From a virus: a DNA stretch of 22,250 nucleotides. Shown piece after piece: positions 1-17,942 of the stretch (position 1 is its first letter; every line of letters starts with the position of its first letter). The stretch lies in IMG/VR virus record IMGVR_UViG_3300028844_003739, positions 1 through 22,250 of that record; one strand, given 5' to 3'. Below the pieces are notes generated by a model. That model saw only the letters and a list, made by a program, of their open reading frames with translations, was not told the DNA's origin and made no database searches. The translations under genes and the position numbers were made by a program.

Positions 1-2328
1 TATGCTAGAGGAAACTACTCCGTTGCTGTTGGATATGAAGCTGGTGACCATGCAACTGGTTCTTATAACACTTTTGTAGGTGGTTACGCTGGACAAGGCG
101 GAACAACATCCGCTCCGTTTAGTTCAGGTGAGAATAATACTGCTCTTGGATACCAAGCTCTTGATGGTTTCACAACTGGTAATAACAATGTTGCTATTGG
201 AATGAGTGCTGCTGGTGCTCTAACAACAGGAGTTCAGAACGTAGCTATCGGTAGGGATGCTATGTTATCTGCTACAACAGTTCAAAAGGTAGTCGCTTTA
301 GGTTATAGAGCTGGTTATAGTCTTTCAACAGGCGACCAAAGGTCTGTATATCTCGGTGAGGATACAGGCTTTTACAATCAAACTGGTATTTACAATACAT
401 ATGTTGGGTATAGGTCTGGATTTGGAGTTAGTGGTAACTCAAATAGTTATAATGTTGGTTTAGGATATAATAGTTTAAATGGTATCTCAACAGGTACACA
501 AAATACTGCTGTAGGTTATCAAGCAGGTAAAGGTATAACCACTGGAACAGAAAATGTTGCTATCGGTTCTGAAGCTGGAAAGAGTCTAGCTGATGTTGAT
601 GATGCAGTTCTTATAGGAAGATTAGCTGGTACATCAATAAATTCAGCAGACGCAGACGGAACAGTTGCTGTTGGAACTTTTGCTTTAAGATATCTTACAG
701 ATGGTCAGTATAATACCGCTATCGGTTTTGGTGCTTTAAATGTTAACAAAAGAAATGACTATAATACTGCCGTTGGATATCGTGCTTTAGTTAACTACTC
801 AGGTTCAGCTGCTGGGACAGGTGGAAATACCGCCGTTGGTTCTTGGTGTGGTGATAGTTTACAGACTGGTACTCATAATACTTTAATGGGATTTTATGCA
901 GGACAATCTTTAACGACTGCTGGTGGTAGTGTACATATTGGTTCTCAAGCTGGTTATTATACTACTACTGGTACATATAATACTGTTATTGGTAATGAAG
1001 CTCTTTACAGAAATGTTGTTGGTAGTTTCAATACAGTTATAGGACATAAAGCTGGTCAGTATGCGACAGGAAGTAATAACACATATATAGGATTTTATAG
1101 TGGTCAAGGTGCATCAAACTCTGCTCCGTTTAGTTCAGCTAATCAGAATACTGGTGTTGGAATGTACACAATGCAACTCGTAACAACAGGTGGTAATAAT
1201 ACTGCTCTTGGATATGGTGCTATTAATAAAAATAGTACTGGAACTGATATTGTAGCAATAGGAGCATCTGCTGGATACTATGCCACAGGTTCCAATAACA
1301 CATTTGTAGGTAAAAGTGCTGGTCGAGGTGGAACAACTTCTGCTCCTTATAGTTCAGGTGAGTATAGTACCGCCGTTGGAAGTGAGGCTCTTTATAGTTT
1401 CACAACTGGTGGTAGTAATGTAGCAGTTGGTTACAGAGCTATGTATGCTGTTACTACAGCAAATAATAATATTGCTGTTGGAAATAATGCTATGAGATAC
1501 CTCACAACAGGAACGTACAACGTTTCAATTGGTAAAAACTCAGGTCCAAACGCAATGGGTAGCAGAGTAGTCGCTATCGGAGAACTTGCTGGTAGAATGA
1601 ATAAAGGATTAGGAAATGTACATATAGGTTATCGTGCAGGTTTTTACGTTTCTGGTAGTCATAATATTACCATCGGATACCAAGCAGGATATGGTGGAAC
1701 ATCATCAGCTCCGTATAGTACAGGTACATATAATGTTGCTCTTGGATACAATGCTCTTAGTTCTTTCACAACAGGATATAATAATGTTGCAGTAGGTGGT
1801 GGTGCAGGTGATTCCATAAACACAGGATATAATAATACCATAATGGGATCGTCTGCTGGAACTAATCTAACCACTGGATTTAATAACGTAATCATCGGAA
1901 GGGTTGCTGCTTACGCTTCAACCGATGTGGATAAAGCCGTAATAATCGGTGAACAGGCAGCTTATACTGGTAATATGACTTCTGCCGCAGATGGTACTAT
2001 TTCCATAGGTAATAATGCTGGTAAAAATGTAACATCAGCAGAGGCAAGTACGTTTGTCGGCTCTGGTGCTGGTGCAAATGTAACAACTGGAGACCACAAT
2101 ACAGCTTTTGGAAAAAGTGCGGGTAGTCAGATAACCACTGGTGGAGAAACTGTTACGGTTCTGAAGCAGGTAAAGGCGGAACAACCTCTGCTCCTTATAG
2201 TTCAGGTCAGTATAGTGTTGCTGTGGGTACTGAGGCTCTTTCTAATTTCACTACTGCTGAAGGTAATATTGCTATTGGCTACCAAGCTGGAAATGATATC
2301 ACAACAGGAGGTAATAACGTTTTCATAG
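1..2328 (+). CDS. Long repetitive tail fibre, upstream part (5' end outside window; frame lost near 2150)
   Basis: The frame is open from base 1, so the gene starts left of the window; the ATG at 202 lies inside the repeats and is not the real start. The protein is a chain of short repeats of the type N-x-A-[VIL]-G-x-x-A-x(3-5)-T-T-G. This resembles the YadA-head beta-roll repeat of trimeric adhesins and is also known from phage fibres. No signal peptide or enzymatic motif is visible. The expected role, from family knowledge, is a trimeric host-contacting fibre. The repeat pattern stops at about nt 2150 and is replaced by a hydrophobic out-of-frame tail ending at 2328, while the same repeats resume one frame back (see 2223-3458). 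The two parts are very probably one gene with a 1-nt frame disruption. Confidence 0.85.
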   Translation, partial: YARGNYSVAVGYEAGDHATGSYNTFVGGYAGQGGTTSAPFSSGENNTALGYQALDGFTTGNNNVAIGMSAAGALTTGVQNVAIGRDAMLSATTVQKVVALGYRAGYSLSTGDQRSVYLGEDTGFYNQTGIYNTYVGYRSGFGVSGNSNSYNVGLGYNSLNGISTGTQNTAVGYQAGKGITTGTENVAIGSEAGKSLADVDDAVLIGRLAGTSINSADADGTVAVGTFALRYLTDGQYNTAIGFGALNVNKRNDYNTAVGYRALVNYSGSAAGTGGNTAVGSWCGDSLQTGTHNTLMGFYAGQSLTTAGGSVHIGSQAGYYTTTGTYNTVIGNEALYRNVVGSFNTVIGHKAGQYATGSNNTYIGFYSGQGASNSAPFSSANQNTGVGMYTMQLVTTGGNNTALGYGAINKNSTGTDIVAIGASAGYYATGSNNTFVGKSAGRGGTTSAPYSSGEYSTAVGSEALYSFTTGGSNVAVGYRAMYAVTTANNNIAVGNNAMRYLTTGTYNVSIGKNSGPNAMGSRVVAIGELAGRMNKGLGNVHIGYRAGFYVSGSHNITIGYQAGYGGTSSAPYSTGTYNVALGYNALSSFTTGYNNVAVGGGAGDSINTGYNNTIMGSSAGTNLTTGFNNVIIGRVAAYASTDVDKAVIIGEQAAYTGNMTSAADGTISIGNNAGKNVTSAEASTFVGSGAGANVTTGDHNTAFGKSAGSQITTGGETVTVLKQVKAEQPLLLIVQVSIVLLWVLRLFLISLLLKVILLLATKLEMISQQEVITFS

Positions 2329-2940
2329 GAAAGCTTGCGGGTGATTTACTAACCACAGGAACAAATAATGTAGTTGTTGGTAGTGGAGCGTTAGGAACTG
2401 CTGATGGAAATGAAAGAGAAAATATTGCTATTGGTCAAGGTGCTGCTGGTGGTATAAACAATGACTCTGCTATACGAAATGTTTTTATAGGAGAATATGC
2501 TGGATATGGTGGAACTGGTGCTTTAAACTACTCTGTTGCTATTGGGTATGACGCACTTAAATCTACAGGAACCAGCGGTGATGCATCTGGAACGGTTGCT
2601 ATCGGTTATCAAGCTGGAAAAGCGATTACTTCAGGTCAACAAACAGTTCTTGTTGGGTATTTAGCAGGACATAAAGCTACAACTGGAGATTCCGAAACTG
2701 CTGTTGGTTATAAAGCGTTAGGTGGTGACCAAACTGGTAATTTAACTGGTAATGCAAATACCGCAGTTGGTAGATATGCTATGGCAAAGGCATATGATTC
2801 TGCAACTAAAAATACTTCTATGGGTAATCAATCATTAGAGTCACTTACAAATGGTAGTTTTAATGTTGCATTTGGTGCTTACGCTGGAGATAATTTAACA
2901 ACTGGAGCAGGAAATACTTATCTTGGATATTATGCTTTAC
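1..2940 (+). repeat. YadA-head-like beta-roll coding repeats with five larger 'SAP' super-units
   Basis: Dozens of degenerate short repeats encode x-A-[VI]-G-x-x-A and TTG-x-x-N motifs. Superimposed on these is a longer unit with the core GG-T-x-SAP-[YF]-S-[ST]-G, starting at about 91, 1102, 1321, 1687 and 2169. Each is followed by similar SxTTG-NN-VAVG text. The copies differ at many synonymous positions, so these are old protein repeats rather than recent DNA duplications. The frame break lies just before the fifth super-unit. Confidence 0.85.
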
Positions 2941-3458
2941 CATCAGCCGTAGATATAACCGATGAAATACTAATAAAAGCTGGTACTGGAACAAGTATGA
3001 CTGGCGGTGGAACAGAAACAGTAAGAATAGGTGTAGACTCTGATTACATAACAAACGACTTTGGTGAAAATGCTACTTGGACACACTCTTCAGATAGACG
3101 AGTTAAGAAAAACATTGAAGACAACGATTTAGGATTAGGGTTTATAGAAAAACTAAGAACACGAAAGTTTCAAAAGAAAGCCCCAAGTGAATATCCTGAA
3201 GAATTTGACCAACATAACTCAGATACTACAGAGAGAAAAAATCCTGATAGGATACATTATGGATTTGTAGCACAAGAAGTTAAAGAAGCTATGGACTCTG
3301 TAGGACACTCAGAGTTTCCTGTTTGGAAAGAAAACAGAGATGGAATGCAGGAATTGGGTGAAACAGAATTGATTACACCTCTTGTAAAAGCAGTTCAGGA
3401 ACTAACAGAGATGGTAAAAACTCAACAAAAAGAGATAGAAGAGTTAAAAAAGAAATAA
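2223..3458 (+). CDS. Tail fibre, downstream part, with C-terminal peptidase S74 intramolecular chaperone
   Basis: This is the continuation of the upstream fibre in another frame, which is open from 2127; the ATG at 2223 is internal to the repeats and not a true start. The beta-roll repeats continue to about nt 2940. A short linker follows (TVRIGVDSDY), then an S74 domain: SSDRRVKKN at its start, LGLGFIEKLRTRKF, and YGFVAQEV. S74 domains trimerise fibres and then cut themselves off at a Ser of this SD-x-R-x-K motif. Cleavage would release about 120 residues. The C terminus (LVKAVQELTEMVKTQQKEIEELKKK region) is a predicted coiled coil, as usual for this chaperone. Function is assigned from the domain; receptor specificity cannot be read. 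Confidence 0.9.
   Translation: MGTEALSNFTTAEGNIAIGYQAGNDITTGGNNVFIGKLAGDLLTTGTNNVVVGSGALGTADGNERENIAIGQGAAGGINNDSAIRNVFIGEYAGYGGTGALNYSVAIGYDALKSTGTSGDASGTVAIGYQAGKAITSGQQTVLVGYLAGHKATTGDSETAVGYKALGGDQTGNLTGNANTAVGRYAMAKAYDSATKNTSMGNQSLESLTNGSFNVAFGAYAGDNLTTGAGNTYLGYYALPSAVDITDEILIKAGTGTSMTGGGTETVRIGVDSDYITNDFGENATWTHSSDRRVKKNIEDNDLGLGFIEKLRTRKFQKKAPSEYPEEFDQHNSDTTERKNPDRIHYGFVAQEVKEAMDSVGHSEFPVWKENRDGMQELGETELITPLVKAVQELTEMVKTQQKEIEELKKK
3087..3095 (+). other. Predicted autoproteolytic site of the fibre chaperone (Ser-Ser-Asp)
   Basis: The codons at 3087-3095 read Ser-Ser-Asp and begin the SD-R-R-V-K-K segment. In characterised S74 chaperones the Ser preceding Asp and a nearby Lys are needed for self-cleavage, and the cut falls next to that Ser. 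The exact bond is inferred by analogy. Confidence 0.55.
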
Positions 3459-3473
3459 AAAATCGTATTTCGT

Positions 3474-3483
3474 ATACTTATAT
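3474..3483 (+). promoter_or_regulatory. Candidate late-promoter element ATACTTATAT before the 102-residue gene
   Basis: The 10-mer ATACTTATAT lies 41 nt before the ATG at 3525, in the 66-nt gap after the fibre gene. Close versions occur in four other intergenic gaps of this window. Assigning promoter function is inference. Confidence 0.4.
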
Positions 3484-3524
3484 GATATATATTAATGTTA
3501 ACAATAAATTAAGGAGTTATTAAA

Positions 3525-3833
3525 ATGGCTGAAGAAATTAAATTTAGTGAAGAGGAATTAAAGTCTCTTCAAGAATTAAGTCAAAGTTATCAAAGCATTC
3601 AAGCTTCTTTTGGACAAATGAAAGTTCAGAAGATTCTTAATCAACAACAAGCTGATGCTTTAGAAGAAGCTGAAGTAAAAATGGATGCTGATTATAAGGA
3701 TATTCAAGACAATGAACGTAAGTTAGTTGAAGAGTTGAATGAAAAGTACGGTCCTGGTCAATTAGACCCACAAACTGGAGTATTTACACCGGCGCCTAAA
3801 GAAGAAGTTGCTGAAGAAGTAGAAGAATCTTAA
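3525..3833 (+). CDS. Small acidic coiled-coil protein, function unknown
   Basis: This encodes 102 residues, with ATG preceded by AAGGAG (seen just before TTATTAAAATG). The N-terminal two thirds are rich in Glu, Gln, Lys and Ala with heptad-like spacing (ELKSLQELSQSYQSIQ, LEEAEVKMDADY), which predicts a long helix or coiled coil. A short LDPQTGVF segment and an acidic tail (EEVAEEVEES) follow. There is no catalytic motif, signal peptide or membrane segment. It sits between the fibre and the tail sheath, with its own candidate promoter upstream, so a role as a minor virion protein or assembly factor is plausible. I do not recognise a named T4 homologue. Confidence 0.75.
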   Translation: MAEEIKFSEEELKSLQELSQSYQSIQASFGQMKVQKILNQQQADALEEAEVKMDADYKDIQDNERKLVEELNEKYGPGQLDPQTGVFTPAPKEEVAEEVEES

Positions 3834-3871
3834 ATAAATCCTTAATCGGTTGTATTTTGAAAATTTTCTTT

Positions 3872-3881
3872 ATATTTATAT
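3872..3881 (+). promoter_or_regulatory. Candidate late-promoter element ATATTTATAT before the tail sheath gene
   Basis: This lies in the 96-nt gap before the sheath gene, 48 nt upstream of its ATG. The extended 15-mer TTTATATTTATATAT at 3869-3883 is repeated exactly at 6526-6540 before the tube gene. Two identical 15-mers in front of the two most highly expressed tail genes suggest a shared promoter. AT richness is the main caveat. Confidence 0.5.
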
Positions 3882-3929
3882 ATAATGAATTTTCATATTA
3901 ATTTTTTAAACCTTTAAAGGAGAAAACAC

Positions 3930-6407
3930 ATGGCAGAGAGAATAGTCAGTCCAGGTGTATTCACTCGTGAGAGAGATTTATCTTTTTTACCTCAAGGAGT
4001 ATCTGAAATAGGTGCAGCTATTGTAGGACCGACAGTAAAAGGTCCTTCATTCGTACCAACAGTAGTCAGAAACTTTGAGGAATTTGAAAGTATTTTTGGA
4101 ACTTACAATAGTGATTATTACACACCCTTTACAGTTAAGAACTACTTAGATAGTGCTGGAACTGTAACAATAGTAAAAGTAGGATATCTTGGTGGATACA
4201 AGGTATCGGGCTTCAATTTAGTAGTTAGTGGTTCGGGCGCAACAAAGTTTGTTGTAGCTCAATTTTTACCAGCAGAACCAAATAATAGTGGTGAGGGACT
4301 AATAAGTGGTTCTTTGTCAGGAGATCCTACCTCAGAAGCTAGTAACTTTGCTTTGAAGATTAACGGAGCTAATGCAACTGCTAGTGTTTCAAATTTGACA
4401 TTATCAGAAAAAGGTTCAGCTACAGGTGATTTATCAAGTGCTTCCTCTAATTTTATTGGAAAGCAATTTCCTACTGCTCCTGGTGCTCAAAAGATAGGTT
4501 CAACAGATGCACCAGCGTATATGTATAAGTTTTTTAGAACTGCATTAAGTGCCTCTTTTTCAAATGGTACTCTTACTGCTAACGCTTCAATGTCCATAGA
4601 AAACTTTGCTGATAATGGAATTGATTTTGCTAGTGGAACTGAATCTGTAGATACTTCAGATGGTAACTATATTAGTACTATTTCAGGTAACTCAGATGCA
4701 GCTTCTGCAAGAACACCATTTATCGTATCCCAAGATTCTACTGAATTATTTAGAATATACACGAGAGCTGATGGTACTGAAACTAATAATCATTACGCAG
4801 TAATTCGTGATGTAAAAAGACCACAAAACTCTAACTCAAGTCCAGATTATGCTGAGTTTGGTTTAGCAGTTTACACTGCAGATGGAAGTCTTGTTGAAAC
4901 TTACAGTAATTTAAACTTAGATCCAACTTCGGGTAACTATATAGTTAAGGTAATTGGAGATGAGTTTCAAACTGTAAATAACGATGGTGAAATCACTGTT
5001 TATGGTGATTATCCTAATGCTTCAAGACACATTAGAGTTGGTGATTACAAAGAAAGTACATTTGAAAGTAATCCTAATTTACAGCCAATGGGATATTCTG
5101 CTGTATTAGACCCAATTAAATCTACTGCAAGTGTACCGACTGCATCTTTTAATCGTAGTCAGGTAATTCCAACTGTAGATTCTAATACATATAAAGAGGA
5201 CTTACCATACGGATTTAAGATAGACCCTCGTTTTGGTGAAAACGAATTAGCTGATAACAAAGCTTACTTATCTCCTATTCCTAAGAGTGAGAATGCAGGA
5301 AGTAACGTTGACTTTCTTCTTACAAATATGAAGGGATTTGGAGCAGCTGGTAGTTCTGAATCAAGCAAATATACTAATTTTGCTATATCAACTCAAAATC
5401 TAAATATATCATCTTCAACTCAACAGTTGAAGTTTGCTGTACCATTTCAACATGGTTTTGATGGTATTAATCCGTCACACCCAAAACATACTGGTACATC
5501 AATTAGTTCTGCTAACACAAGTGGATTTGATATTAGTAGTGCTACTGCTAGTGGTTCTATAGCTTACAAAAGAGCTATAAACGCTGTTAGTAATCCTGAT
5601 GAGTATGATATTAATATGTTGGTAACTCCAGGTATTATTCATAAACATCATAACATTATCAGTAACCACGCTATAGACAAGGTAGAAGCTAGAGCTGATG
5701 CTTTCTATGTAATGGATGGTTCTGATATTGATGATAATGTCGCTACAGCAGTAAATAATGTGGCTAGTTTAGATACTAATTATGTAGCTACTTATTACCC
5801 TTGGGTTAAAATGGATGATATTTCAAAAGGTTCAGGTACAGTATTAGTACCACCATCGGTAGTAATACCAGGCGTAATTGCTTTCACAGACAGTGTAGCT
5901 CACGAATGGTTTGCTCCTGCTGGACTAAACAGAGGTGGATTAACAAATGTTCGTATGACTCAGAAGAAACTTACTCATACAGACAGAGATACGCTTTATG
6001 AAGGTAGAGTTAATCCTATCGCATCCTTTCCAGGTCAAGGTGTAGTTGTTTTCGGACAGAAGACATTACAGGCTAGACCATCTGCTCTTGATAGAATCAA
6101 TGTAAGAAGATTATTAATCAGATTGAAGAAGTTTATTGCTTCCTCAAGTAGATTCTTAGTATTCGAACAGAATGATAGTTCTACAAGAAGTAGATTCTTA
6201 AATATAGTTAATCCGTTCTTAGAATCAGTTCAATCCAATAGTGGTTTGAGTGCATTCAAAGTTGTAATGGATGATTCTAACAATACACCTGATGTCATAG
6301 ACAGAAATCAGTTGGTTGGACAGATATTCATACAACCTACAAGGACTGCTGAGTTTATTGTATTAGACTTCTCAGTACTTCCAACGGGTGCTGCATTTCC
6401 TGAATAA
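3930..6407 (+). CDS. 18: Contractile tail sheath protein (gp18-like)
   Basis: This 825-residue protein polymerises around the tail tube and contracts to drive it through the host envelope. The N terminus (MAERIVSPGVFTRERD, then GAAIVGPTVKGP and a FGTYNSDYYTPFTVKNYL stretch) is the typical start of T4-type sheath subunits. The C-terminal part, from about residue 640 (GLNRGGL, then INVRRLLIRLKKFI, and FIQPTRTAEFIVLDF near the end), matches the conserved domain that forms the inner sheath layer. The middle, about residues 85-480, is Ser/Thr/Asn-rich and probably surface-exposed. It is longer than T4 gp18 (659 residues), consistent with extra surface insertions. The start is fixed by AAAGGAG 8-9 nt upstream. 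An intrinsic terminator follows. Confidence 0.95.
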   Translation: MAERIVSPGVFTRERDLSFLPQGVSEIGAAIVGPTVKGPSFVPTVVRNFEEFESIFGTYNSDYYTPFTVKNYLDSAGTVTIVKVGYLGGYKVSGFNLVVSGSGATKFVVAQFLPAEPNNSGEGLISGSLSGDPTSEASNFALKINGANATASVSNLTLSEKGSATGDLSSASSNFIGKQFPTAPGAQKIGSTDAPAYMYKFFRTALSASFSNGTLTANASMSIENFADNGIDFASGTESVDTSDGNYISTISGNSDAASARTPFIVSQDSTELFRIYTRADGTETNNHYAVIRDVKRPQNSNSSPDYAEFGLAVYTADGSLVETYSNLNLDPTSGNYIVKVIGDEFQTVNNDGEITVYGDYPNASRHIRVGDYKESTFESNPNLQPMGYSAVLDPIKSTASVPTASFNRSQVIPTVDSNTYKEDLPYGFKIDPRFGENELADNKAYLSPIPKSENAGSNVDFLLTNMKGFGAAGSSESSKYTNFAISTQNLNISSSTQQLKFAVPFQHGFDGINPSHPKHTGTSISSANTSGFDISSATASGSIAYKRAINAVSNPDEYDINMLVTPGIIHKHHNIISNHAIDKVEARADAFYVMDGSDIDDNVATAVNNVASLDTNYVATYYPWVKMDDISKGSGTVLVPPSVVIPGVIAFTDSVAHEWFAPAGLNRGGLTNVRMTQKKLTHTDRDTLYEGRVNPIASFPGQGVVVFGQKTLQARPSALDRINVRRLLIRLKKFIASSSRFLVFEQNDSSTRSRFLNIVNPFLESVQSNSGLSAFKVVMDDSNNTPDVIDRNQLVGQIFIQPTRTAEFIVLDFSVLPTGAAFPE

Positions 6408-6432
6408 TAAGGAGGTGTAAAACAATAGAAGA

Positions 6433-6456
6433 GGGGAACAATAGTTCCCCTTTTTT
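6433..6456 (+). terminator. Intrinsic terminator after the tail sheath gene
   Basis: A perfect 7-bp stem GGGGAAC / GTTCCCC (6433-6439 and 6444-6450) with an AATA loop is followed directly by six T. A-T pairing of flanking bases can extend the stem. It lies 25 nt after the sheath stop codon and is the only strong intrinsic terminator seen in the window. Confidence 0.9.
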
Positions 6457-6528
6457 ATTATATCAAAAAACTATGAAAAAACTATGAAATAATAACTCAA
6501 TATTCTGTATCGATTTTTCAGTTTGTTT

Positions 6529-6538
6529 ATATTTATAT
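6529..6538 (+). promoter_or_regulatory. Candidate late-promoter element ATATTTATAT before the tail tube gene
   Basis: It lies between the sheath terminator and the tube ATG at 6573, 34 nt upstream of the start, inside the 15-mer 6526-6540 that is identical to the one before the sheath gene. Because a terminator precedes it, the tube gene should need its own promoter, which strengthens the call. Confidence 0.55.
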
Positions 6539-6572
6539 ATGAAAGAATTAAACACTTATTAGGAGAACTGAA

Positions 6573-7061
6573 ATGGCAGATATAATCGATCCTTCAGAAA
6601 TTATGTTTACACCCTTTGAACCGAAAGTTAAGAATCGGTTTATTATGTACATAGAAGGAATCCCTGCATACCTTATTAGAGCTGCTGCTCGACCAACTAT
6701 TACATTCGAAGAAATAGAATTAAATCATATCAACGTTAAAAGATATGTTAAAGGAAAAGGTTCTTGGGAACCATTGGAAATCACTCTTTACGATCCTATT
6801 GTACCATCAGGTGCACAGGCAGTTATGGAGTGGGTTCGTTTACACAAAGAATCTGTTACAGGTAGAGATGGATACTCAGACTTTTACAAGAAAGATGTTA
6901 CTTTCAACGTATTGGGTCCTGTAGGAGATAAAGTAGAAGAATGGACACTAAAAGGTTCTATGATTCAATCTGCTAACTTTGGTGACATGAACTTTGAAAC
7001 CAATGAACCTAATGAGATTACATTAACACTAAGATACGATTACGCTATCTTACAATTCTAA
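6573..7061 (+). CDS. 19: Tail tube protein (gp19-like)
   Basis: This 162-residue protein forms the inner tail tube through which DNA passes, and size and sequence fit the T4 gp19 family. Visible family features are an N-terminal FEPKVKNRFIMYIEGIPAYLI, the RPTITFEEIELNHINVKRYVKGKGSW strand pair split by ARP, W-EPLEITLYDPI, and the C-terminal NEITLTLRYDYAIL strand. It directly follows the sheath gene, as in T4. The start is supported by AGGAG 8 nt upstream. A terminator and candidate promoter upstream suggest transcription separate from the sheath. Confidence 0.94.
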   Translation: MADIIDPSEIMFTPFEPKVKNRFIMYIEGIPAYLIRAAARPTITFEEIELNHINVKRYVKGKGSWEPLEITLYDPIVPSGAQAVMEWVRLHKESVTGRDGYSDFYKKDVTFNVLGPVGDKVEEWTLKGSMIQSANFGDMNFETNEPNEITLTLRYDYAILQF

Positions 7062-7070
7062 GAGGATAAT

Positions 7071-7280
7071 ATGAGTTTTTTAAGAGAAATGCTTTCTAGT
7101 GATGCTAAAATCTCTAGTAAAAGATTTGTCGGTTTTATGGCTTTCTTTATGCTGATTTGTAGTTGGGGTGCTGATACCTTTTCTACATTTGAGGTCAAGG
7201 ACAAGATATTGGAATGTTTTATGTACATTTCAGTAGTTGGACTTGGTGTTACAGCGGCTGAGAAGTTCGGTAAAAAATAG
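7071..7280 (+). CDS. Small two-helix membrane protein, holin-like
   Basis: This encodes 69 residues. A short polar N terminus (MSFLREMLSSDAKISSKR) leads into hydrophobic helix 1 (about 19-33, FVGFMAFFMLICSW), a charged loop (EVKDK), hydrophobic helix 2 (about 46-62) and a Lys-rich end (EKFGKK). This size and two-helix layout is typical of class II holins and related phage membrane proteins, and an SSKRFxG start is a pattern I associate with such proteins. No lysis enzyme is seen beside it, so the function stays tentative. It begins 9 nt after the tube gene with a GAGG site and appears co-transcribed with it. Confidence 0.65.
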   Translation: MSFLREMLSSDAKISSKRFVGFMAFFMLICSWGADTFSTFEVKDKILECFMYISVVGLGVTAAEKFGKK

Positions 7281-7313
7281 TTATAGTTCAAAACTAAATC
7301 ATAGGAGTCAAAT

Positions 7314-8057
7314 ATGGCTGAAGTCAAATTCCCTACAGAAGTAGTGGATTTGCCGTCTAAGGGTTTACTATATCCAGAAGGTAGTCCCCTATCATCTGGT
7401 AAAATAGAAATCAAATACATGACGGCAAGAGAAGAGGATATTCTAACATCTGCTAACCTTATCAAAAAAGGTGTGGTTGTAGAGAAGTTATTAGAGTCAC
7501 TTATAGTGGATAAATCAATTAAGGTAGATGATTTACTGATTGGTGATAAGAATAGTATTTTAATCGCATCAAGAATACTTGCATATGGTAAAGAATATGA
7601 GGTAGAGATAGATGGTAGAAAGATAGAGGTTGATTTGACCACATTGAAAGATATTCCATTAGATGAGAGTATAACATCAAAAGGTTCTAACGAATTTGAA
7701 TTTGAATTGCCTGCAACGAAAAGAAAATTGACATTTAAACTGCTTACATCCGGTGATGAAAAAACTATAGCTGAAGAAGTTAGAGGTTATGAAAAAATTG
7801 ATGGTATCGGTTACGAATTAACCACAAGATTAAAACATAGTATTATTTCTATAGATGGTGACACTAAAAGAGCTAGTATTAATTCGTTTGTAGACAATGA
7901 ATTTTTATCAAGAGATTCAATCGCTTTCAGAAGTTATGTAGCAGAAATTCAACCAGATGTAGATATGACATCAACATATACGGATAATGAAGGTAACGAA
8001 AAGGAGTTTACGGTCCCGATGACCGTTACGTTTCTTTGGCCTACCCTTGGATTATAA
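7314..8057 (+). CDS. 26: Baseplate hub protein, T4 gp26-like
   Basis: This 247-residue protein has the N-terminal signature FPTEVVDLPSKGLLYPEGSPL followed by KYMTAREEDILTSANL, which I associate with the T4-type baseplate family that includes gp26. The middle (VDDLLIGDKNSILIASRILAYGKEY) carries the conserved LLxGDKN segment. In T4, gp26 is a baseplate hub component or assembly factor. The start is fixed by AGGAG before TCAAATATG. The C terminus (TVTFLWPTLGL) overlaps the next ORF by 11 nt. Its position upstream of the tape measure gene mirrors tail-chaperone positions in other phages. Confidence 0.7.
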   Translation: MAEVKFPTEVVDLPSKGLLYPEGSPLSSGKIEIKYMTAREEDILTSANLIKKGVVVEKLLESLIVDKSIKVDDLLIGDKNSILIASRILAYGKEYEVEIDGRKIEVDLTTLKDIPLDESITSKGSNEFEFELPATKRKLTFKLLTSGDEKTIAEEVRGYEKIDGIGYELTTRLKHSIISIDGDTKRASINSFVDNEFLSRDSIAFRSYVAEIQPDVDMTSTYTDNEGNEKEFTVPMTVTFLWPTLGL

Positions 8058-8256
8058 ACCACAACTACACGAACAACTCTTTCAAATAAGTTTTAACTCA
8101 CAAGGTATGTTTTCTTTTTCAGAGGTATACAACATGCCTATATATCTCCGTACATTCTACTTTAAGAGACTACAAAAACATTTTAAGGATGAAGCTGAAG
8201 AGGTCAAGAAAGCTCAACAAAGTAACAAATCATCTATTCCATCTTATAAAAAATGA
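8047..8256 (+). CDS. Small tail assembly chaperone-like protein (possibly gp51-like), TTG start or frameshift product
   Basis: This encodes 69 residues with the hallmark EVYNMPIYLRTFYFKRL. The pattern 'xxYxMPxxLRxFY' is common in small proteins encoded just before tape measure genes in T4-like phages. The tail is basic (Lys/Gln/Ser). The only plausible start before the conserved part is TTG at 8047, with no Shine-Dalgarno sequence nearby; the frame is open from 8023. It could therefore be made by coupled re-initiation at TTG as the upstream ribosome terminates at 8055-8057, or as an extension of the gp26-like protein by a +1 (or -2) shift within 8023-8057. An internal ATG (residue 21) would drop conserved sequence. 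Confidence 0.65.
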   Translation: MDYKPQLHEQLFQISFNSQGMFSFSEVYNMPIYLRTFYFKRLQKHFKDEAEEVKKAQQSNKSSIPSYKK

Positions 8257-8264
8257 TAAATGTG

Positions 8265-8274
8265 ATATTTATTA
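8265..8274 (+). promoter_or_regulatory. Candidate late-promoter element ATATTTATTA
   Basis: This lies in the 59-nt gap before the 55-residue gene, 41 nt upstream of its ATG. Its first eight bases match the element before the sheath and tube genes. It would drive the small gene and the tape measure. Confidence 0.4.
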
Positions 8275-8315
8275 TTGAATAATTCCACACAAAAATAATC
8301 TAATGGAGAACCAAA

Positions 8316-8483
8316 ATGGCTGGTAGAGAAGGTTTAATTTACAAATTCTTTGAGAAATGGAAAAACAAAAAGCTTAATAAATTTGCTAAAGATTTACTGA
8401 AGAAAGATCCTAAACTCAATAAAAACTTAGAAGATTTAGCAGACAGTTTTAGAGAACTTGAGAAGAGGTTAGATAAGAGATAG
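8316..8483 (+). CDS. Small basic helical protein (55 residues), function unknown
   Basis: The ATG at 8316 is preceded by GGAG with good spacing, and the stop TAG is at 8481-8483, 2 nt before the next start. The product begins MAGREGLIYKFFEKWKNKKL and ends FRELEKRLDKR. It is rich in Lys, Leu and Glu and should be almost all helix, perhaps a short coiled coil. Good start signals and tight spacing on both sides support a real gene. Its place directly before the tape measure suggests an assembly role, which is inference only. Confidence 0.7.
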   Translation: MAGREGLIYKFFEKWKNKKLNKFAKDLLKKDPKLNKNLEDLADSFRELEKRLDKR

Positions 8484-8485
8484 CA

Positions 8486-8980
8486 ATGGCTGATGATAAA
8501 AAATATACATCTGATGATTTTAGAACGTTAAAAGGTATAAAGCAAAATTTAGAAGATATTGTTAAACTAGAAGAAAAAGGTTTTAAGAGTGCTGTTGATA
8601 AGAACAAATTAAAAAAAGAACAACTTCAGTTTCAATCGCGTGGTTTAGATATTGAAAAGAAAATAGATTCTATACAAGACAGTGTTGTAGGAAAATTATT
8701 AAAACAAAAAGGTGTTGAGAAAGAGCTTTTAAGTTTAGGTAAGTTATCAGAAAAAGGAACTAAAAAAGAACAAGAAGACGCACAGAAAATTTTACAACAT
8801 GTGGAACAATTTGCTAAAGGACAGATAGATAATGTTGAACTAACAAGTCGTCTTGCTGAAAATTATGGTGATTTAGACGATATTGCTAATAAATTTGGAA
8901 AAACAGTTGCTGATAGTGGAAAAGATTTAGAAGATACCGTTAAAACCAGCGCAAAACTATTGATATTGAAGAAACATTAA
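8486..8980 (+). CDS. Tail tape measure protein, N-terminal part (frame ends early)
   Basis: This gives 164 residues, charged and helical (LEDIVKLEEKGFKSAVDKNK and similar), ending in an odd LLILKKH. The adjacent frame is open from 8944 and reads KTIDIEETLSFAGVLAAVGS straight into the next ORF. The two fragments therefore look like one protein of about 561 residues, close to T4 gp29 (590), interrupted near GCAAAACTA at 8951-8959. One extra A in the AAAA run would restore a single frame. A -1 slip on the A run is the alternative. The upstream spacing is 2 nt and the ribosome site is weak (GAGATAG), so translation is probably coupled to the 55-residue gene. Confidence 0.75.
   Translation: MADDKKYTSDDFRTLKGIKQNLEDIVKLEEKGFKSAVDKNKLKKEQLQFQSRGLDIEKKIDSIQDSVVGKLLKQKGVEKELLSLGKLSEKGTKKEQEDAQKILQHVEQFAKGQIDNVELTSRLAENYGDLDDIANKFGKTVADSGKDLEDTVKTSAKLLILKKH
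8951..8960 (+). other. Likely frame-change site within the tape measure gene
   Basis: The upstream frame reads Ser-Ala-Lys-Leu and the downstream frame reads Lys-Thr-Ile-Asp across GCAAAACTAT. The shift must lie between 8944 (last stop of the downstream frame is at 8941-8943) and 8977. It equals one missing base or a -1 slip. The AAAA run makes an undercalled base the simplest cause. Confidence 0.7.
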
Positions 8981-9018
8981 GTTTTGCTGGTGTATTAGCA
9001 GCAGTAGGCTCTTTCATA

Positions 9019-10170
9019 ATGCAAGCTAAAGAGGTAAGAAAAGAATTAGGTACTAGTGTTGGTGAATCTGCTAGATTAGCAGGTAATATGAAATTAGCTT
9101 CCTTTCAGGCTTTTTTACTTGGTGGTGATACAGAACAAGCGGCTCAAGCAGTTACAGCTTTAAATAGAGAGTTCGGTAGTTTAGGTGCAGTAACACCTCG
9201 TGTTGCTAAACAGGCTGCTTCGATAACTGCTCAGTTTGGTATAGGTGGAGAAAATTTAGGTAGACTTACAAAACAGATGTCTGTTCTAAATGGTGCATCT
9301 TTAGAAACCAATTTAAATACGTTAGAAACTGTTGGTAACTTAGCTAGAGCAGAAAGAGTAGCGCCTGCTGATGTCTTAAATGATATGGCAGAAAGCACAG
9401 AAACTTTTGCTAAATTTTCAATGGAAGGTGGGAAGAATTTAGCTCGAGCCGCTATAGAAGCTAGAAAATTAGGATTAAATTTAAGCGCTGTTGATAAGAT
9501 AGCTGAAAGTATATTAGACTTTGAAACTTCAATAGAAAAACAGATGGAAGCTTCTGTCATGTTAGGAAGACAACTTAACTTAGATAGAGCTAGACAATTA
9601 GCTATAGAGGGTGATTTAGAAGGAGTATTGGCTGAGGTTAAGAACCAAGTTGGTGGTGCAGAAGCTCTTAGTAGAATGAATGTTATACAGAGAAAAGCAT
9701 TAGCAGATGCGGTAGGATTAGAAGTTTCAGAATTATCTAAGTTAGCTGCCGGTCAAGAAAAAGTTACATCTTTGATTAGTGACCAAAATATGCAATTACT
9801 TTCTAGTTTCGGAAAATTTGTAGGTATAGGTGCTGTGTTGGGGGCTATTATAGGTATGATAACACTCGGTGCGGCCACTTCTGCTATGGCTGGTGGTGCA
9901 TTGACAGGTGGGTTGATTGGTGCAGCAGCTGGAGCCACTGGATTCCTCGCGATGAAGGGTGCACAAAAGATGAACATAATACCAAAAGCCCAAACTGGTG
10001 GTGTGGTAAGAGAAACCGGTATGGCTGTGGTACACAAAGGTGAGTCAATAGCTGGAACTCAGTTCGGTGGTAGAGAGAGTAATAACTTACTAAAAGAATT
10101 AATTAAACAAAACTCAACATTAATGAATAGACTAACAAACAAGGTTGGTGACTTAGCATTAAGTTCATAG
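9019..10170 (+). CDS. 29: Tail tape measure protein, C-terminal part (gp29-like)
   Basis: The frame is open from 8944, so ATG 9019 is probably not the true start. The 383-residue segment is mostly helical and Ala/Leu/Glu-rich. It has a Gly/Ala-rich hydrophobic stretch at about residues 265-320 (GIGAVLGAIIGMI, GGLIGAAAGATGFLAM), as in tape measure proteins that later insert into the host membrane. It ends with AQTGGVVRETGMAVVHKGES, a motif typical of tape measure C termini, then a polar helical tail. The protein sets tail length and is ejected with the DNA. Position between tail chaperone-like and baseplate genes fits. Joined to 8486-8980 it makes about 561 residues. Confidence 0.8.
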   Translation: MQAKEVRKELGTSVGESARLAGNMKLASFQAFLLGGDTEQAAQAVTALNREFGSLGAVTPRVAKQAASITAQFGIGGENLGRLTKQMSVLNGASLETNLNTLETVGNLARAERVAPADVLNDMAESTETFAKFSMEGGKNLARAAIEARKLGLNLSAVDKIAESILDFETSIEKQMEASVMLGRQLNLDRARQLAIEGDLEGVLAEVKNQVGGAEALSRMNVIQRKALADAVGLEVSELSKLAAGQEKVTSLISDQNMQLLSSFGKFVGIGAVLGAIIGMITLGAATSAMAGGALTGGLIGAAAGATGFLAMKGAQKMNIIPKAQTGGVVRETGMAVVHKGESIAGTQFGGRESNNLLKELIKQNSTLMNRLTNKVGDLALSS

Positions 10171-10180
10171 GAGATAAGAA

Positions 10181-12796
10181 GTGGCTTTAGAAAAAATGGT
10201 ATCAGATTTATCTAACTTCAAAACCAAAGGTGATGTTGCATACGATAAACTAGACCCACAGATAGAGAATGGTGTGGATTACTTTCCTAATCATGACGCT
10301 CCTGGTTTTACTCCTAAAACAGATTTGGAGTCTCTTTACAAAAAAGCTAATTCTGCTGTACCGGCTAATGCATCAGGTTTTGTACCAGCTTCTGATGGAC
10401 AATTAAGTCAAACATGGGGTAGTGACTTCCCTACACAATTTAAAAATGGATTTTTTCCAATAGCTAACGCTGTTAGTAATTATAATCCACCAGCAAACGA
10501 ATCATTGACTTTTAATATAGGTGATTTTAGTTTCAACAATGTTCCTAAAGTTCCAAGCGCAGATGGTAGTGATTTTATGACTACACCATTAGCTAACTTT
10601 GTTAGCATGTTTAAAGTACCATATAACTCTCAGGTATTTGATGTTCAACAACATATTTCTTCAGGTCCTACTCAGTTTAATATTGAACCTTTTGATAATA
10701 CACCATCGGTTCCAAATGCACATGGTGGTGATTTTATGACCACGCCAATAGCTAGTTACAACAGTAGATTTTCATTATCAACACCTTTGGGTGCGGGGAC
10801 TAAAACACTTAAAGTTAGAAAAGAGGCTTTTAGAAAAGTAGAGGATGAATCTCCATTTGATAAATTTGTAAAACCATTTTCTGTAGAAACAACAAAAAAC
10901 ATTTACGGAGATAGCGACTATATAAAAGATTTATTTGAGTTTAGAAAAGATGGTAGGGATACATTTAAAAACGTTCCAAATGGAGTGGATGGTAATGGTT
11001 TATTCAGTACTGCTGATTTTAGAAAGGTAGCTAACAAAGGCCCATTTGATGGTAACAACACTCATCCAATTATATTAAGAAAACCCGGTTCAAATTGGGA
11101 TAATGTTTTAAATGAGAGTGCTATCGGTGGAACTGCTGGTAATGTGGTTGCTGGTGCTTTAGGAGTTGTAGGTTTATTAACTAGAACTTCAGTTGGGTTA
11201 GCTGATAAGGCTAGGGTATTTAAGTTTATGATATCAGGTAAGGGTATATCTTTTGTAGCTAAACAATTTGCTTTTCAAGCTCTTAATCCTACCTTAGAAA
11301 GTAAGATATACAATCCTCTTTCTACTTTAGGAATAGCTGGGGCTAGTGATTTATTACAAGGTGATTTAAGTGGATTATTAAGAGCGGCTGGTTCTTTTCT
11401 ATTTCCAACACATGTAGAAAGACATTTAGGTGGTATAAAATATGAAGATGTTAATCCACTTGATAGATTAGAAGGAGATAAAGGACTTGGTAAAAAGATT
11501 AAATCAATACCTGTTGTAGGAAACACTCTTTTTAATAAGATAAATGATAAGATAGATGAAGTAGGTGGTTTTAGTAGATTAGGTGCACAAGCTTCTATGG
11601 AGATAGCTGGTGTTGAGATACCTCTTAAAGATAGAATGTTAATGATGAATCCAAATAAGTATCTATTCCCTATTTCATCAGCTCCAATGTCTGTGGTTAA
11701 TGGTGTTCCTCATTTTACTATTGAAGCTGGTAGTGGTAACGGTTCTGCAGCCAAAGCTGAAGCTGATAAAGCAGAGAGTAAAGATGGTGGTACATTTAAC
11801 GATTTGACAGCACGAAGACACTCTACACTTGAATATGATAGATTAAATAGTGATTCGGGATATGATGCTAACAATCCATTATCACCATCAGAAGCAAATA
11901 GATATGTAGATGGGAGTAATACAGAAATAGATGATTTCAATCTTACGGATAGATTTTTAAGAGCAAGGGTGAATAATGACATTGGTAGAGAAAATAGAAG
12001 TTTAGAAATAACTAACAATCCTGTATTGGGTACAATCAAAGGAGATATGCTGTCTTCTAATGTTGATAAGGTTAATATGACTCCATATGGAGCATCCGTA
12101 GATGGAGAAAGTATTAATGTAAACGATAGTGTTACAACAAAAGATTTCATAAAGTTTAGATTCAAAGATGTGATAAATGATAAGTTTTTAATATTCAGAG
12201 CTATACTAGAAGGAATCACAGATACAGTAACACCTGAATATGCAGAGGATAGATATATAGGAAGACCAGATAAACTATTTGTGTATCAAGGTGTAGATAG
12301 AAGTATAGCCTTTACATTCAGTCTTTATCCTAAGACGAAACAAGAGTTACCGATATTAATGGAAAAGTTAAATTACTTAGTAGGACTATGTTACCCATCT
12401 TATACAGAGGGTGAAAGAATGGTTTCACCTTTTATAGAATTAACTATGGGTGATATGTTTGTGGAGACTCCAGGTATACTAAGTTCTCTAACTGTAACGG
12501 TAGAGGAACAATCTACTTGGGAATTAGATGAGGGACTACAATTTCCACATTTCATAAAAGCAGCTTGTGAGTTTAGACATATAGGAGAATATGCACCAGC
12601 AACAAAAGGAAAACATTATGATTTAAATTGGATTGAATCTGATGGAAGTTCTTACGAAGTAGCAGGTGCTCCTAACAAAAACATATACACAGATAAGAGC
12701 GAATTAGGATTTCCTCTTTATCCTGAGAGAGATGAAGCTTGGAGAAAGAATGTATTTGAACAATTAGGTCAAGGTAAGGTAGGAGCTGAACAATAA
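10181..12796 (+). CDS. Baseplate-tail tube junction protein (gp48/gp54-like)
   Basis: This 871-residue protein starts at GTG, backed by AGGAG overlapping the previous stop. The C-terminal third (about 640-850) contains DFIKFRFKDVI, LIFRAILEGITDT, YIGRPDKLFVYQG, AFTFSLYPKTKQELPILMEKLNYLVGLCYP split into strands and helix, and a late HIGEYAP. This resembles the tube-like fold domain of T4 gp48/gp54, which cap the baseplate and start tube assembly. Residues 310-430 are hydrophobic and Gly/Leu-rich. The N-terminal 300 residues hold an internal duplication (see 10550-10756) and look extended and repetitive. It is far longer than T4 gp48 or gp54 (about 320-365 residues), so the N-terminal part is an addition or a fusion. 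The end overlaps the next start (TAATG). Confidence 0.6.
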   Translation: MALEKMVSDLSNFKTKGDVAYDKLDPQIENGVDYFPNHDAPGFTPKTDLESLYKKANSAVPANASGFVPASDGQLSQTWGSDFPTQFKNGFFPIANAVSNYNPPANESLTFNIGDFSFNNVPKVPSADGSDFMTTPLANFVSMFKVPYNSQVFDVQQHISSGPTQFNIEPFDNTPSVPNAHGGDFMTTPIASYNSRFSLSTPLGAGTKTLKVRKEAFRKVEDESPFDKFVKPFSVETTKNIYGDSDYIKDLFEFRKDGRDTFKNVPNGVDGNGLFSTADFRKVANKGPFDGNNTHPIILRKPGSNWDNVLNESAIGGTAGNVVAGALGVVGLLTRTSVGLADKARVFKFMISGKGISFVAKQFAFQALNPTLESKIYNPLSTLGIAGASDLLQGDLSGLLRAAGSFLFPTHVERHLGGIKYEDVNPLDRLEGDKGLGKKIKSIPVVGNTLFNKINDKIDEVGGFSRLGAQASMEIAGVEIPLKDRMLMMNPNKYLFPISSAPMSVVNGVPHFTIEAGSGNGSAAKAEADKAESKDGGTFNDLTARRHSTLEYDRLNSDSGYDANNPLSPSEANRYVDGSNTEIDDFNLTDRFLRARVNNDIGRENRSLEITNNPVLGTIKGDMLSSNVDKVNMTPYGASVDGESINVNDSVTTKDFIKFRFKDVINDKFLIFRAILEGITDTVTPEYAEDRYIGRPDKLFVYQGVDRSIAFTFSLYPKTKQELPILMEKLNYLVGLCYPSYTEGERMVSPFIELTMGDMFVETPGILSSLTVTVEEQSTWELDEGLQFPHFIKAACEFRHIGEYAPATKGKHYDLNWIESDGSSYEVAGAPNKNIYTDKSELGFPLYPERDEAWRKNVFEQLGQGKVGAEQ
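10550..10756 (+). repeat. Internal duplication in the junction protein N terminus
   Basis: Two 48-nt segments, 10550-10597 and 10709-10756, are exactly 53 codons apart. They encode VPSADGSDFMTTPLA and VPNAHGGDFMTTPIA, each followed by a short Phe/Tyr/Ser-rich stretch. Similar but weaker text occurs near residues 55-100. This suggests an ancient tandem duplication of a roughly 50-residue unit. Confidence 0.7.
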
Positions 12797-13089
12797 TGCG
12801 TTATAGAAATAATTTAGTAAAAAAAGACAAAGATAATAAAAGATACTACAAACCAACGATTGTACCAAACATACCAATCAAAGATACTGATATCTTTGTT
12901 TATCCGTTATACGGTGATAGGTTTGATACTTTGGCACAACGTTACTATGAAGATCCTACACTTTGGTGGATTATCGCAAAAGCTAACGAAATTAACAATG
13001 GAAAGATATCACCAGATCCAGAAGTAAAACTTAGAATACCAACACGAATAGATGATATATTGGAATCTGTGATTAAATCAAACTTCTAA
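12796..13089 (+). CDS. 53: LysM-type baseplate wedge protein (gp53-like)
   Basis: This 97-residue protein contains a LysM-like fold at about residues 33-85: DIFVYPLYGDRFDTLAQRYY, then EDPTLWWIIAKANEI, ending in a KLRIPTRI strand. Small LysM proteins of this kind (T4 gp53, P2 gpX) bind at the baseplate or tail-tip core of contractile systems. The W-W-I-I-A-x-A-N segment is the usual second half of the domain. The ATG overlaps the previous stop as TAATG and AGGAG lies about 10 nt upstream, so it is co-translated with the junction protein. The N-terminal 25 residues are basic and probably an attachment arm. Confidence 0.8.
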   Translation: MRYRNNLVKKDKDNKRYYKPTIVPNIPIKDTDIFVYPLYGDRFDTLAQRYYEDPTLWWIIAKANEINNGKISPDPEVKLRIPTRIDDILESVIKSNF

Positions 13090-13090
13090 A

Positions 13091-16000
13091 ATGTTTACAA
13101 AATTCATATCAAAAAATATACAAGAAAAGATGAAGGCTAAGGAAAGAGCTTTAGCCAGAAAGGTTAGCTCTAATAATCCTAACGAACATCTTTCAATAAA
13201 AGACATGGCTACTAGAACTCCGTTTGTAAGGATGGCTTCTAATAAATCAAATGTAAGACATAATAAATTGATAGAGGGTGGTTTGAGAGATGGTAATTTT
13301 GAAAACAAACAATTTGGTTTTAGCAAAGCTTATGACGATGGAAAATTTGGGGGTGAAATAAAACCTTTACCTGGCATTAAAAGTATTGAGTGTTCATATA
13401 AAGGTGGATTTAAAGCTATCAGAGAGTGTACAGTTAGTTGGGTTGTTCCTCATATAGATATGTTAAATGAATTAACTCCACACTTCTTTACAGTTGGTAA
13501 AACGGTTGTTGTAGATTGGGGTTGGGTTTATGGTAATAAAAAAATAGATAGTCAACTGGTTGATACGTTTATTTACTTTGGAAACGATGTGGTTACTAGT
13601 AGAGTAAACGGACAAAATGTGGATAATGATATAAGGAACGTTCTTATAGATCCAAACATATTCAATAATCCACAAGATTTGATATTAAAAAAAGATGGTG
13701 ATTATGATGCTATAGGTGGACAGATTACAAATTTTGAGTATAATTTGAGAGAAGATGGTGGTTTTGATTGTGTCACAAAAATAATTGCTATGGGAAATTC
13801 TTTATTTAAGAAACCAATAGATAGAGGTGGTAATCAGGCTGGTTTGAAAATTAGTGGAAAAGACGCTAAATCCACACCACCTGACAGTTTAATAAATTGT
13901 ATTCTTAATTTAGAAAACATAGTTAAGTTTAATGTTTTTAAAGCTAAATCATCTGTGAATGGTGAGGTAGCCAATATATACCAAGTAGAACAGGATATAA
14001 GAAATGGGTATGAAAACTTAGCTCCTGTTCAAGATGCTAAAGGTAAAAAAGTGTCTGGATATGGAATTTTTGCAGACACTATTCCAAAAAAGACTTTTGG
14101 TCCAACTATTCCGACTAAAGAAATAAATTCTGCTAATAATAAAGGTAGACCTGATGTCATATACACAATTAGAGATCATCAAAGAGATATTTTTGTAACT
14201 TGGGGATGGTTTGAAGATAATATAGTTAACAGATATATTTCTTTTGAGGCTGGTGATACAAAAGATATAAAGCTTACGATGAGAAGTATAGATTCAGTTT
14301 TAGATAATGAAGGAAAACCAATACCAACTAAAGATTTAAGTGAAGATATAATAACTGAATATGAAAAAAAATATGATATAGATTTAGAAAATTTATCAGA
14401 GTATAATGAATTTGTAAAAAGAGATAGTCTGATAAGAAATCCTCCAGGAATGGTTCCTGTTAATCCTTTCAAATTTTTTATAGCTGAAAAAAGCAGTACT
14501 GATTTTATTGATGGCTCTCAACAAGATTTATCTATACCTCTTTTATCTTATATGGGTGTTACTATTCTTAAATATAAAAGTCCAAAAGGCTTAACATCTA
14601 TGGAACAATTTTATAGTAAATTTACTACTTTAGGAACTAATTTAAAAAGATTTCAATCAAATACAAAAATAGGCTTTGGTAAATTGAGAAACATATATGT
14701 AAATATAAAAGAAATACAAAACGCTTTTGGTATAAGAGACGCAAATTCAAAAGATACTTCAAGTAATAATATAAATCCTCCAGGAACTATTGAAACTGCA
14801 ATTAACAATTTGCTAACAAATTTAAATACAAATTTTCATAATGTTTGGGATTTTGAACTTTGTGTAGATCCATATAATTCTACTAATATAAAAGTCATCG
14901 ACAAGTCAGATACAGAAGAAAAGAATCCACAATACACCACATATCAAGAAAACAGCAATTTGGTAAAAGATGATGGTGGTGGAATATTTCAATTTCCTGC
15001 TTTTAAGGTTGGAAGCTTTGTTAAGAATCAAAGCTTAACATTTAAAATACCAGATGCTCAGGCAATCACAATACTTTATGGTTCTAATAAACAAAAAGGT
15101 GACAATGATCCTGAATTTGCTAATGGTCAGTTAGATAAATTATTTAGAAATGATAAAACAAGTGAGTTCGATGATGCTTACCTTAAAAATATGAAATCAT
15201 CTCATCAAAACAGTGCTGGTCAAAATGGAGTTATAAAGACAAATGTTGGTAGTGAGGATGTTAATCCTAATACTCCAATATCTACTGCAGACGGATTTGG
15301 TTTAAATATTAATCCTAAAGCTTCAAAAAGTTGGTGGAAACAATGGACACCCGATGTAGAAACATCATCTAATAAAACATCAGGAGGAAATTCAAAAACA
15401 GAGCCAGAGGGTTATTTTGAAGTTATACAAACTCCAAATGGTCCTAAAATTGAATTTATTGGTATAAAGAGTAGAGATAAAAATCCAGTTATGTATTCAG
15501 TCAATGAGAAAAAAGAATTAGTTTTAAATCCTAAAATTCAATATACACTTAACTCTTATCTTAATTCAAATTCGCCAGTTCAACAATTTGATATGAGTAA
15601 TCTAATACCAGCAGAACTAGGCTTAGAGATAGATGGTACGGGTGGTATAATCCCTTTTGATTTAATTCATACGGAGTATATAGAGGAAAAATATAAATCA
15701 GAATTGATTAGTTATGCTTATTTAAGTTCTGATGAGAGTAGGGAAGCAGGAATTAACGAAGGACCTGAACAAGATGGTGAATCTGAACTATCAGATGCGA
15801 ATATTGATATTATTACATCACAACCACCTAAAGAAGAATTGGGTCCTTTAACTTACTTTCAATTATTCGATGTTACTCATAAGGTTGATGAAACAGGATG
15901 GAAAACGGAACTTAACTCTAAGATGAGAATAAATCACATACCTCGTGATGACTTTGTTACTTTTGTAAAAGAAGAAGAGGCACCACCTCCTGAGAGACCA

Positions 16001-17092: not shown

Positions 17093-17102
17093 GAGATAAA
17101 GA

Positions 17103-17891
17103 ATGAGTGTTCAACTACAAGAATTTTTAGAAAAAAGAAGTAATAAGCTACCAAAAGTATCTCCTGCTATATCTGCTATACACGAAAATACGGACAGAGT
17201 AGAAAAGAATAAGGTTGCTAAAGAGAAAGAATTTTACTCTAAAAGAGGAAAGTATATTTCAAAAGGATCTCTTTATCATGTACACTATACAAAAGATTTA
17301 GAGGTTCATTATATGACTGGTGGAGAACACAACGAAAGAACTCAGTTGATATTTAGAAAGAGTATTTTTGATAGCGACTTTGATTACTACAATACTTTAA
17401 ACAAACAAGAGGTTGTACAATTAAAATCAACATCTAAACCACCAACCGAAGATGATTACAAGAATGGTACGATGACTAGATACTTTGCTAAAAAAGCTAA
17501 CGATACAAGGTCACCAGCATTCGAAGTTTCAGAAGATGATTTTGAATCATCACCTATGTACAACTTTGTATCATTACGCTGGTATATTAGAGGAAATAAG
17601 ATTAGGGTTACCAAATCAAATCAGAGAGAGATAACAGTTGCTTCAATAAAGATATCTAACATTGGTAAGCTGCTACCTATTCTACAATACTATCGTTCAG
17701 ATTCTAAAGTTGGTGTTAGACAATCGATAATCGATAGGTTAGGAATTACAGGTCAACAAGGTGATGCACAACAAGAAACTACCACAACAACACAAACAAC
17801 AAATCCAAAAACTACTAACACACAACAAAGTGCACCATCTGGTCCTCCACCAGGAGTAATGGCAGGTGGAGCTGGTGGTGGTTCATATTAA
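17103..17891 (+). CDS. Putative virion structural protein with Thr/Gln linker and glycine-rich tail
   Basis: This encodes 262 residues. The N-terminal helix region (about 1-50) is charged. Residues 50-215 form a mixed domain (GKYISKGSLYHVHYTKDLEVHYMTGGEHN in part, SPMYNFVSLRWYIRGNKIRVTKS, TVASIKISNIGKLLPILQYY). The last 45 residues are low complexity: a Thr/Gln/Asn run, then SGPPPGVMAGGAGGGSY. A flexible linker and Gly-rich tip suggest an exposed virion part, which is inference. The start is backed by AGGAG overlapping the hub stop codon. It closes the baseplate block before thyX. I do not recognise a T4 counterpart; I associate the folded domain with conserved proteins of marine myoviruses. 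Confidence 0.7.
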   Translation: MSVQLQEFLEKRSNKLPKVSPAISAIHENTDRVEKNKVAKEKEFYSKRGKYISKGSLYHVHYTKDLEVHYMTGGEHNERTQLIFRKSIFDSDFDYYNTLNKQEVVQLKSTSKPPTEDDYKNGTMTRYFAKKANDTRSPAFEVSEDDFESSPMYNFVSLRWYIRGNKIRVTKSNQREITVASIKISNIGKLLPILQYYRSDSKVGVRQSIIDRLGITGQQGDAQQETTTTTQTTNPKTTNTQQSAPSGPPPGVMAGGAGGGSY

Positions 17892-17915
17892 TTTACATTT
17901 TGGGTTATCTATATA

Positions 17916-17925
17916 ATACTTATAT
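17916..17925 (+). promoter_or_regulatory. Candidate promoter element ATACTTATAT before thyX
   Basis: The same 10-mer as at 3474-3483 lies in the 51-nt gap before thyX, 17 nt upstream of its ATG. The spacing is shorter than at the other sites, leaving a leader of only about 10 nt if it acts as a -10 element. Confidence 0.4.
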
Positions 17926-17942
17926 ACAAATAGAGGTTACAT

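Follow-up and report, generated by a model that had tools for sequence, protein, structure and literature searches.

Related tail fibres and gene content of the window

Among described phage proteins, the closest counterparts of the tail fibre considered here are fibres and spikes capped by a C-terminal Peptidase_S74 chaperone domain, such as the putative tail fibre of Pelagibacter phage HTVC112P (MN698246), whose C-terminal S74 domain scores above the Pfam cut-off. Fibre exchange between phage lineages is also known, for example in Alteromonas phages A5 and V22, for which PMC10579305 describes one fibre on diverged phage backbones, with a chaperone that is separate from the fibre. The DNA that we analyzed, a 22,250-base IMG/VR virus record from a marine phage (hereafter, the window), has its 5′ end within a repeat-rich tail-fibre gene, the start of which lies outside the window, and continues into genes for further tail proteins (Table 1). 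Its fibre likewise carries a C-terminal Peptidase_S74 domain above the gathering score (43.5 bits versus 22), and is in itself an ordinary repeat-rich, S74-capped fibre; when intact, it would consist of a long shaft of repeats that assembles as a trimer, assisted by the C-terminal chaperone. The 461-aa fibre stretch of a near-identical contig (locus L006, described below) aligned over 97% to the HTVC112P putative tail fibre with 33.1% identity. Unlike S74 fibres such as that of HTVC112P, the window copy is interrupted by a gap of 52 bases.

Set beside S74 fibres, the repeats of window 1-2121 (707 aa) matched no Pfam family up to E 10 and had no relative among solved structures (E up to 1). They may resemble those of YadA; in terms of Pfam, window 1-2121 contained no YadA repeat family that would mark a YadA-type head repeat adhesin. 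The only PDB match of the L006 fibre was weak (E 0.2, a transhydrogenase) and was taken as chance. For the tail sheath, the nearest named phages were Microcystis phage Mel-JY01 (44.8%) and the Flavobacterium phages immuto (38.2%), all of them distant, and at the DNA level no phage record matched window 1-8000 at 80% or more, all 11 records found lying at 60-80%. Overlapping the end of the baseplate-hub-like gene is a short TTG-started frame (window 8047-8256) that resembles a TTG-started 65-aa ORF in locus L019 (12593-12790), and is probably a small gene missed by ORF length limits.

Table 1. Features of the window discussed in the text (L numbers denote loci of other IMG/VR contigs)
Feature	Position	Strand	Basis
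Tail fibre gene, 5′ part, repeat-rich, frame 1	1..2156	+	Open frame; PHROG virion structural / tail spike families
Fibre junction, 52 bases absent (= L006 35-86), frame changes to -1	2156..2157	+	Comparison with L006
Tail fibre gene, 3′ part: fifth SAP super-repeat, more repeats, C-terminal chaperone	2157..3458	+	One frame with 5′ flank in L006 3-1388
Peptidase_S74 (chaperone of endosialidase)	about 3090..3305	+	PF13884, E 3.9e-11; computed from residues 322-393 of the frame beginning 2127
Tail sheath	3930-6407		Phage_sheath Pfam families
Probable tail tube	6573-7061		Match to gene annotated tail tube in Microcystis phage Mel-JY01
Baseplate-hub-like gene	7314-8057		phrog_150
Tape-measure-like gene, 5′ part	8486..8959	+	Stop at 8978-8980; L086 4823-6547 intact, 574 aa
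Second junction, 40 bases of L086 absent, same frame-shift direction	8959..8960	+	Comparison with L086
Tape-measure-like gene, 3′ part	8960..10170	+	Separate ORF listed from 9019

Interruption of the fibre gene

Frame 1 of the fibre gene is open from position 1 to a stop at 2326-2328, with a repeat pattern that stops at ...TTGGETV (near 2154); from 2157 the -1 frame takes up the repeats again, as GSEAGKGGTTSAPYSSG; this frame follows the TAG at 2124-2126 and stays open from 2127 up to a stop at 3456-3458. The preliminary description had placed a frame change just before the fifth SAP super-repeat, and this was confirmed, with frame 1 in use to 2156 and the -1 frame from 2157. It had also confined the chaperone to the second frame, in agreement with the Pfam search: PF13884 was found only there (E 3.9e-11), and the first frame had no Pfam family at E 0.001. 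Five SAP copies are present in the window, with the unit upstream of them complete in four and incomplete in the fifth.

We compared this site with L006 (IMGVR_UViG_3300025892_000234), a near-identical IMG/VR contig. L006 begins 34 bases left of the junction, and these bases are the same as window 2123-2156 without a difference; right of the junction, 878 bases (window 2157-3034) are identical. Between 2156 and 2157, L006 holds 52 additional bases, equal to 17 codons plus one base, and its fibre stretch, to the extent that L006 covers the gene, reads as one uninterrupted 461-aa frame with an S74 domain of 43.4 bits. Another locus of the L006 contig has the same letters at the site. Shaft and chaperone, which are not in one frame in the window, are in one frame both in L006 and in L019 1480-7995; the earlier suspicion of an in-frame version elsewhere proved right. 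The frame break is real in this contig and beyond chance, as L006 has exactly 52 bases more. An undercalled A run at 2146-2150, which had been proposed as its cause, is refuted by the same comparison: L006 has the same GAAAC in frame, and the 52-base difference lies a few bases further on.

The 52 missing bases code for the unit located ahead of SAP super-repeats. This unit precedes all four of the other copies in the window and 27 of the 28 copies scored in other loci, which are related loci and not independent; the single copy scored without it, in L019, looks like a variant of the unit. Because the unit is nearly always present, we conclude that the window lacks sequence, rather than that L006 carries an insertion, with the intact state backed by one contig at each of the two gap sites and, on the left side of the fibre site, by 34 bases only. 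DNA patterns from the left and right flanks of the fibre junction each matched only the L006 contig, and no second contig with the junction appeared in this search, which may omit records very near the window. One end of L006 falls 34 bases before the junction and a further contig (L007, IMGVR_UViG_3300009435_000503) starts 30 bases after it, and assembly may tend to end or go wrong at this place.

A second gap in the tape-measure-like gene

A second gene in the window is broken in a similar manner. We call it tape-measure-like, an assignment that we base on its position and content; it matched neither Pfam nor PHROG families at E 0.001. In the window, it is split into ORFs 8486-8980 and 9019-10170. 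All 6,635 bases of L086 (IMGVR_UViG_3300028829_000842) align to window 3664-10258, the only differences being a single substitution at 5891 and a single gap of 40 bases at 8959/8960. Apart from this gap the gene is identical in both contigs, but it is one uninterrupted ORF in L086, while the window is without the 40 bases, equal to 13 codons plus one base. An A run had been suspected at this break at first, and L086 shows the 40-base gap instead. The fibre gap was what prompted the search; the tape-measure gap was not.

In L019, at 59% identity over 100 residues, the segment is present and ungapped, and L152 has four residues fewer just after it. The pattern from the left flank of the tape-measure gap matched only the contig of L086, again in a search that may omit records very near the window.

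Sequence properties of the junctions

Neither junction has homology above background. The ends of the fibre junction match at 12 of 40 positions at offset 52, where the mean is 10.4 (sd 2.1), and those of the tape-measure junction at 7 of 40, where the mean at the same offset is 10.3 (sd 2.7), and unequal recombination or slippage at both sites was therefore rejected, these matches being at background level. In L006, two successive VG motifs are 48 bases apart, with 18 of 40 matches at offset 48. Recombination between repeats that left an indel, another of the causes proposed in the preliminary description, holds up in part: an indel is indeed present, but in-register recombination or slippage does not account for it, as the register is 48 and not 52 and the junction match is that of background. 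Direct repeats do occur near the junctions, but none has a spacing of 52 or 40.

No inverted repeats were found in L006 1-400. By comparison, L086 5100-5500 contains four imperfect inverted repeats, two of which have arms flanking the 40-base stretch (5288-5298 / 5354-5364 and 5221-5239 / 5359-5377, with the gap at 5297-5336). Predicted folds of the missing stretches and flanks (n=6) had z values from -0.25 to -1.94; the best relative to shuffled sequences was that of the 40-base stretch (z -1.94, with 13 of 200 shuffles as good), and the others ranged from -0.25 to -0.97. That a polymerase skipped over a structured stretch is weakly possible at the tape-measure gene and unsupported at the fibre. 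Overall, there is little at the junctions to suggest a natural mechanism.

Gaps in near-identical contigs and in the rest of the window

Gaps between near-identical sequences were surveyed in loci of different contigs with at least 95% identity over at least 1000 columns (108 HSPs, 1,006,036 columns), a set that is partly redundant and in which some contigs are counted repeatedly. With the pair of L086 and the window excluded, gaps of at least 10 bases were found in four of 107 HSPs, at three sites: a repeat collapse with 81-base homology, a 17-base gap that separates two contigs from a third, and a cluster of gaps. The sizeable gaps outside repeats in this comparison lay in L144 (about 1239-1341) and in L222 relative to L163 and L166 (about 6385 in L166). 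In the window, the roughly 7.5 kb compared with near-identical contigs contain two gaps, and, given how rare gaps were in the survey, this points to a cause specific to this contig.

Over 10181-22250, the ORFs of the window abut without evident frame break. Searches with window 1474-2121, 13091-17089 and 19936-21891 as queries gave no near-identical contig. For further gaps, ten window genes were compared with relatives (HSPs below 40% identity dropped, at most 12 targets each). No insertion of six or more residues was seen in relatives of six of the ten genes, and such insertions occurred for the other four, namely the sheath gene at 3930 and the genes at 10181, 13091 and 19936. In gene 10181-12796, at about residue 544-546, L087, L161 and L150/L208 have 13-16 more residues, which may reflect natural variation (44-55% identity) or an in-frame third gap in the window. 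Stripped scaffold Ns were considered as a source of the gaps; the window contains no Ns, and Ns are present in two of 231 loci, all of them single, a result that speaks neither for nor against such stripping.

Sharing of the fibre among phage backbones

The 3′ part of the fibre gene (window 2157-3458; L006 87-1388; L007 from 1) is common to two diverged backbones. L007 and the window have one difference there in bins up to 3299, and in later genes the window matches L006 and L007 only at about 72-75%. L006 and L160 share 100% identity over L006:1281-7385, and L006:932-7358 is 98.9% identical to L012 and L010, which have another fibre upstream. Phage lineages may have exchanged the fibre recently, or the contigs may be chimeric. 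One fibre on diverged backbones is as described for Alteromonas phages A5 and V22; unlike the separate chaperone described there, the chaperone here is part of the fibre protein (PMC10579305). The contig of L019 (IMGVR_UViG_3300030012_003299) has two adjacent repeat-rich fibre-like genes, 1-1479 and 1480-7995, the second of which encodes 2171 aa with an S74 domain, and L026, from the same contig, has further related repeats.

Origin of the two gaps

Based on these sequence comparisons, the frame change is the mark of a 52-base gap in one contig, which very probably arose from a fault of assembly or library making. Pieces may have been joined across a short unassembled stretch, or chimeric molecules may have formed. 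Such a fault best explains why an otherwise near-identical contig has two gaps of its own, both blunt and frame-breaking and each in a different structural gene, and we infer it in preference to a real defective genome. Near-identical ungapped sequence exists, and the junction is in no other record of a search that may omit those very near the window. Against an assembly fault, the shared word at the junction that is the usual signature of repeat collapse is missing, the ORFs over 10181-22250 have no evident frame break, and the 40-base gap is accompanied by inverted repeats and a fold somewhat better than that of shuffles.

The same observations bear on real deletions, in which the phage genome, of one particle or of a minor defective variant, would truly be without the 52 and 40 bases and would form no tails unaided. 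The accuracy of the window elsewhere (one substitution in 6.6 kb versus L086), the lack of assembler-type shared words at the junctions and the inverted repeats around the 40-base gap are consistent with this, but two independent frame-breaking losses in structural genes would be needed within one 22-kb piece, neither junction was found in another contig, the spaced direct repeats are lacking, and such gaps are rare between near-identical contigs; we judge this explanation unlikely. Breaks in the fibre and in the tape measure should both prevent tails from forming, and a thriving lineage is therefore unlikely. That both gaps are real and mark a circulating defective phage, spreading only where intact siblings in the same cell supply the tail proteins, is a much fainter prospect.

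Very improbable in turn is phase variation, in which a repeat unit, reversibly lost and regained, would switch the fibre between off and on. The break does coincide with one repeat unit of a fibre gene rich in repeats, yet its length is 52 rather than the in-register 48, its junction homology is about that of background, L006 1-400 lacks inverted repeats, and the same type of gap occurs in a gene of unrelated function. The real on/off switch raised in the preliminary description is left without support by these findings, by the lack of a heptamer slip site in the overlap, and by flank patterns that gave no second contig with the junction.

Programmed decoding, with a ribosomal -1 shift joining both fibre frames and both tape-measure frames, can be set aside almost entirely. 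The same direction of shift would be needed at both breaks, and under relaxed criteria the scan had a single half-fitting site, at 2172, though this is past the fibre frame change; neither overlap contains an X XXY YYZ heptamer in the zero frame, both proteins are in one frame in near-identical contigs, and a shift would still omit the missing 17- and 13-codon segments. Equally little speaks for a split gene, with a separate short chaperone-bearing protein starting inside the second frame: GTG 2223, the sole start codon in that frame between 2127 and 2500, opens a 411-aa ORF, but a loose scan found no Shine-Dalgarno-like motif before it, in contrast to 10 of 12 other window starts tested, and L006 is continuous.

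Interpretation of the record

The record should be annotated with one fibre gene at 1-3458, which lacks its 5′ end, and one tape-measure-like gene at 8486-10170, both of them gapped. Real gaps would make the contig the genome of a defective phage. A striking "broken fibre" can be the fault of a single contig, and such a fault can be told by comparing near-identical contigs and by seeking a second, unrelated break.
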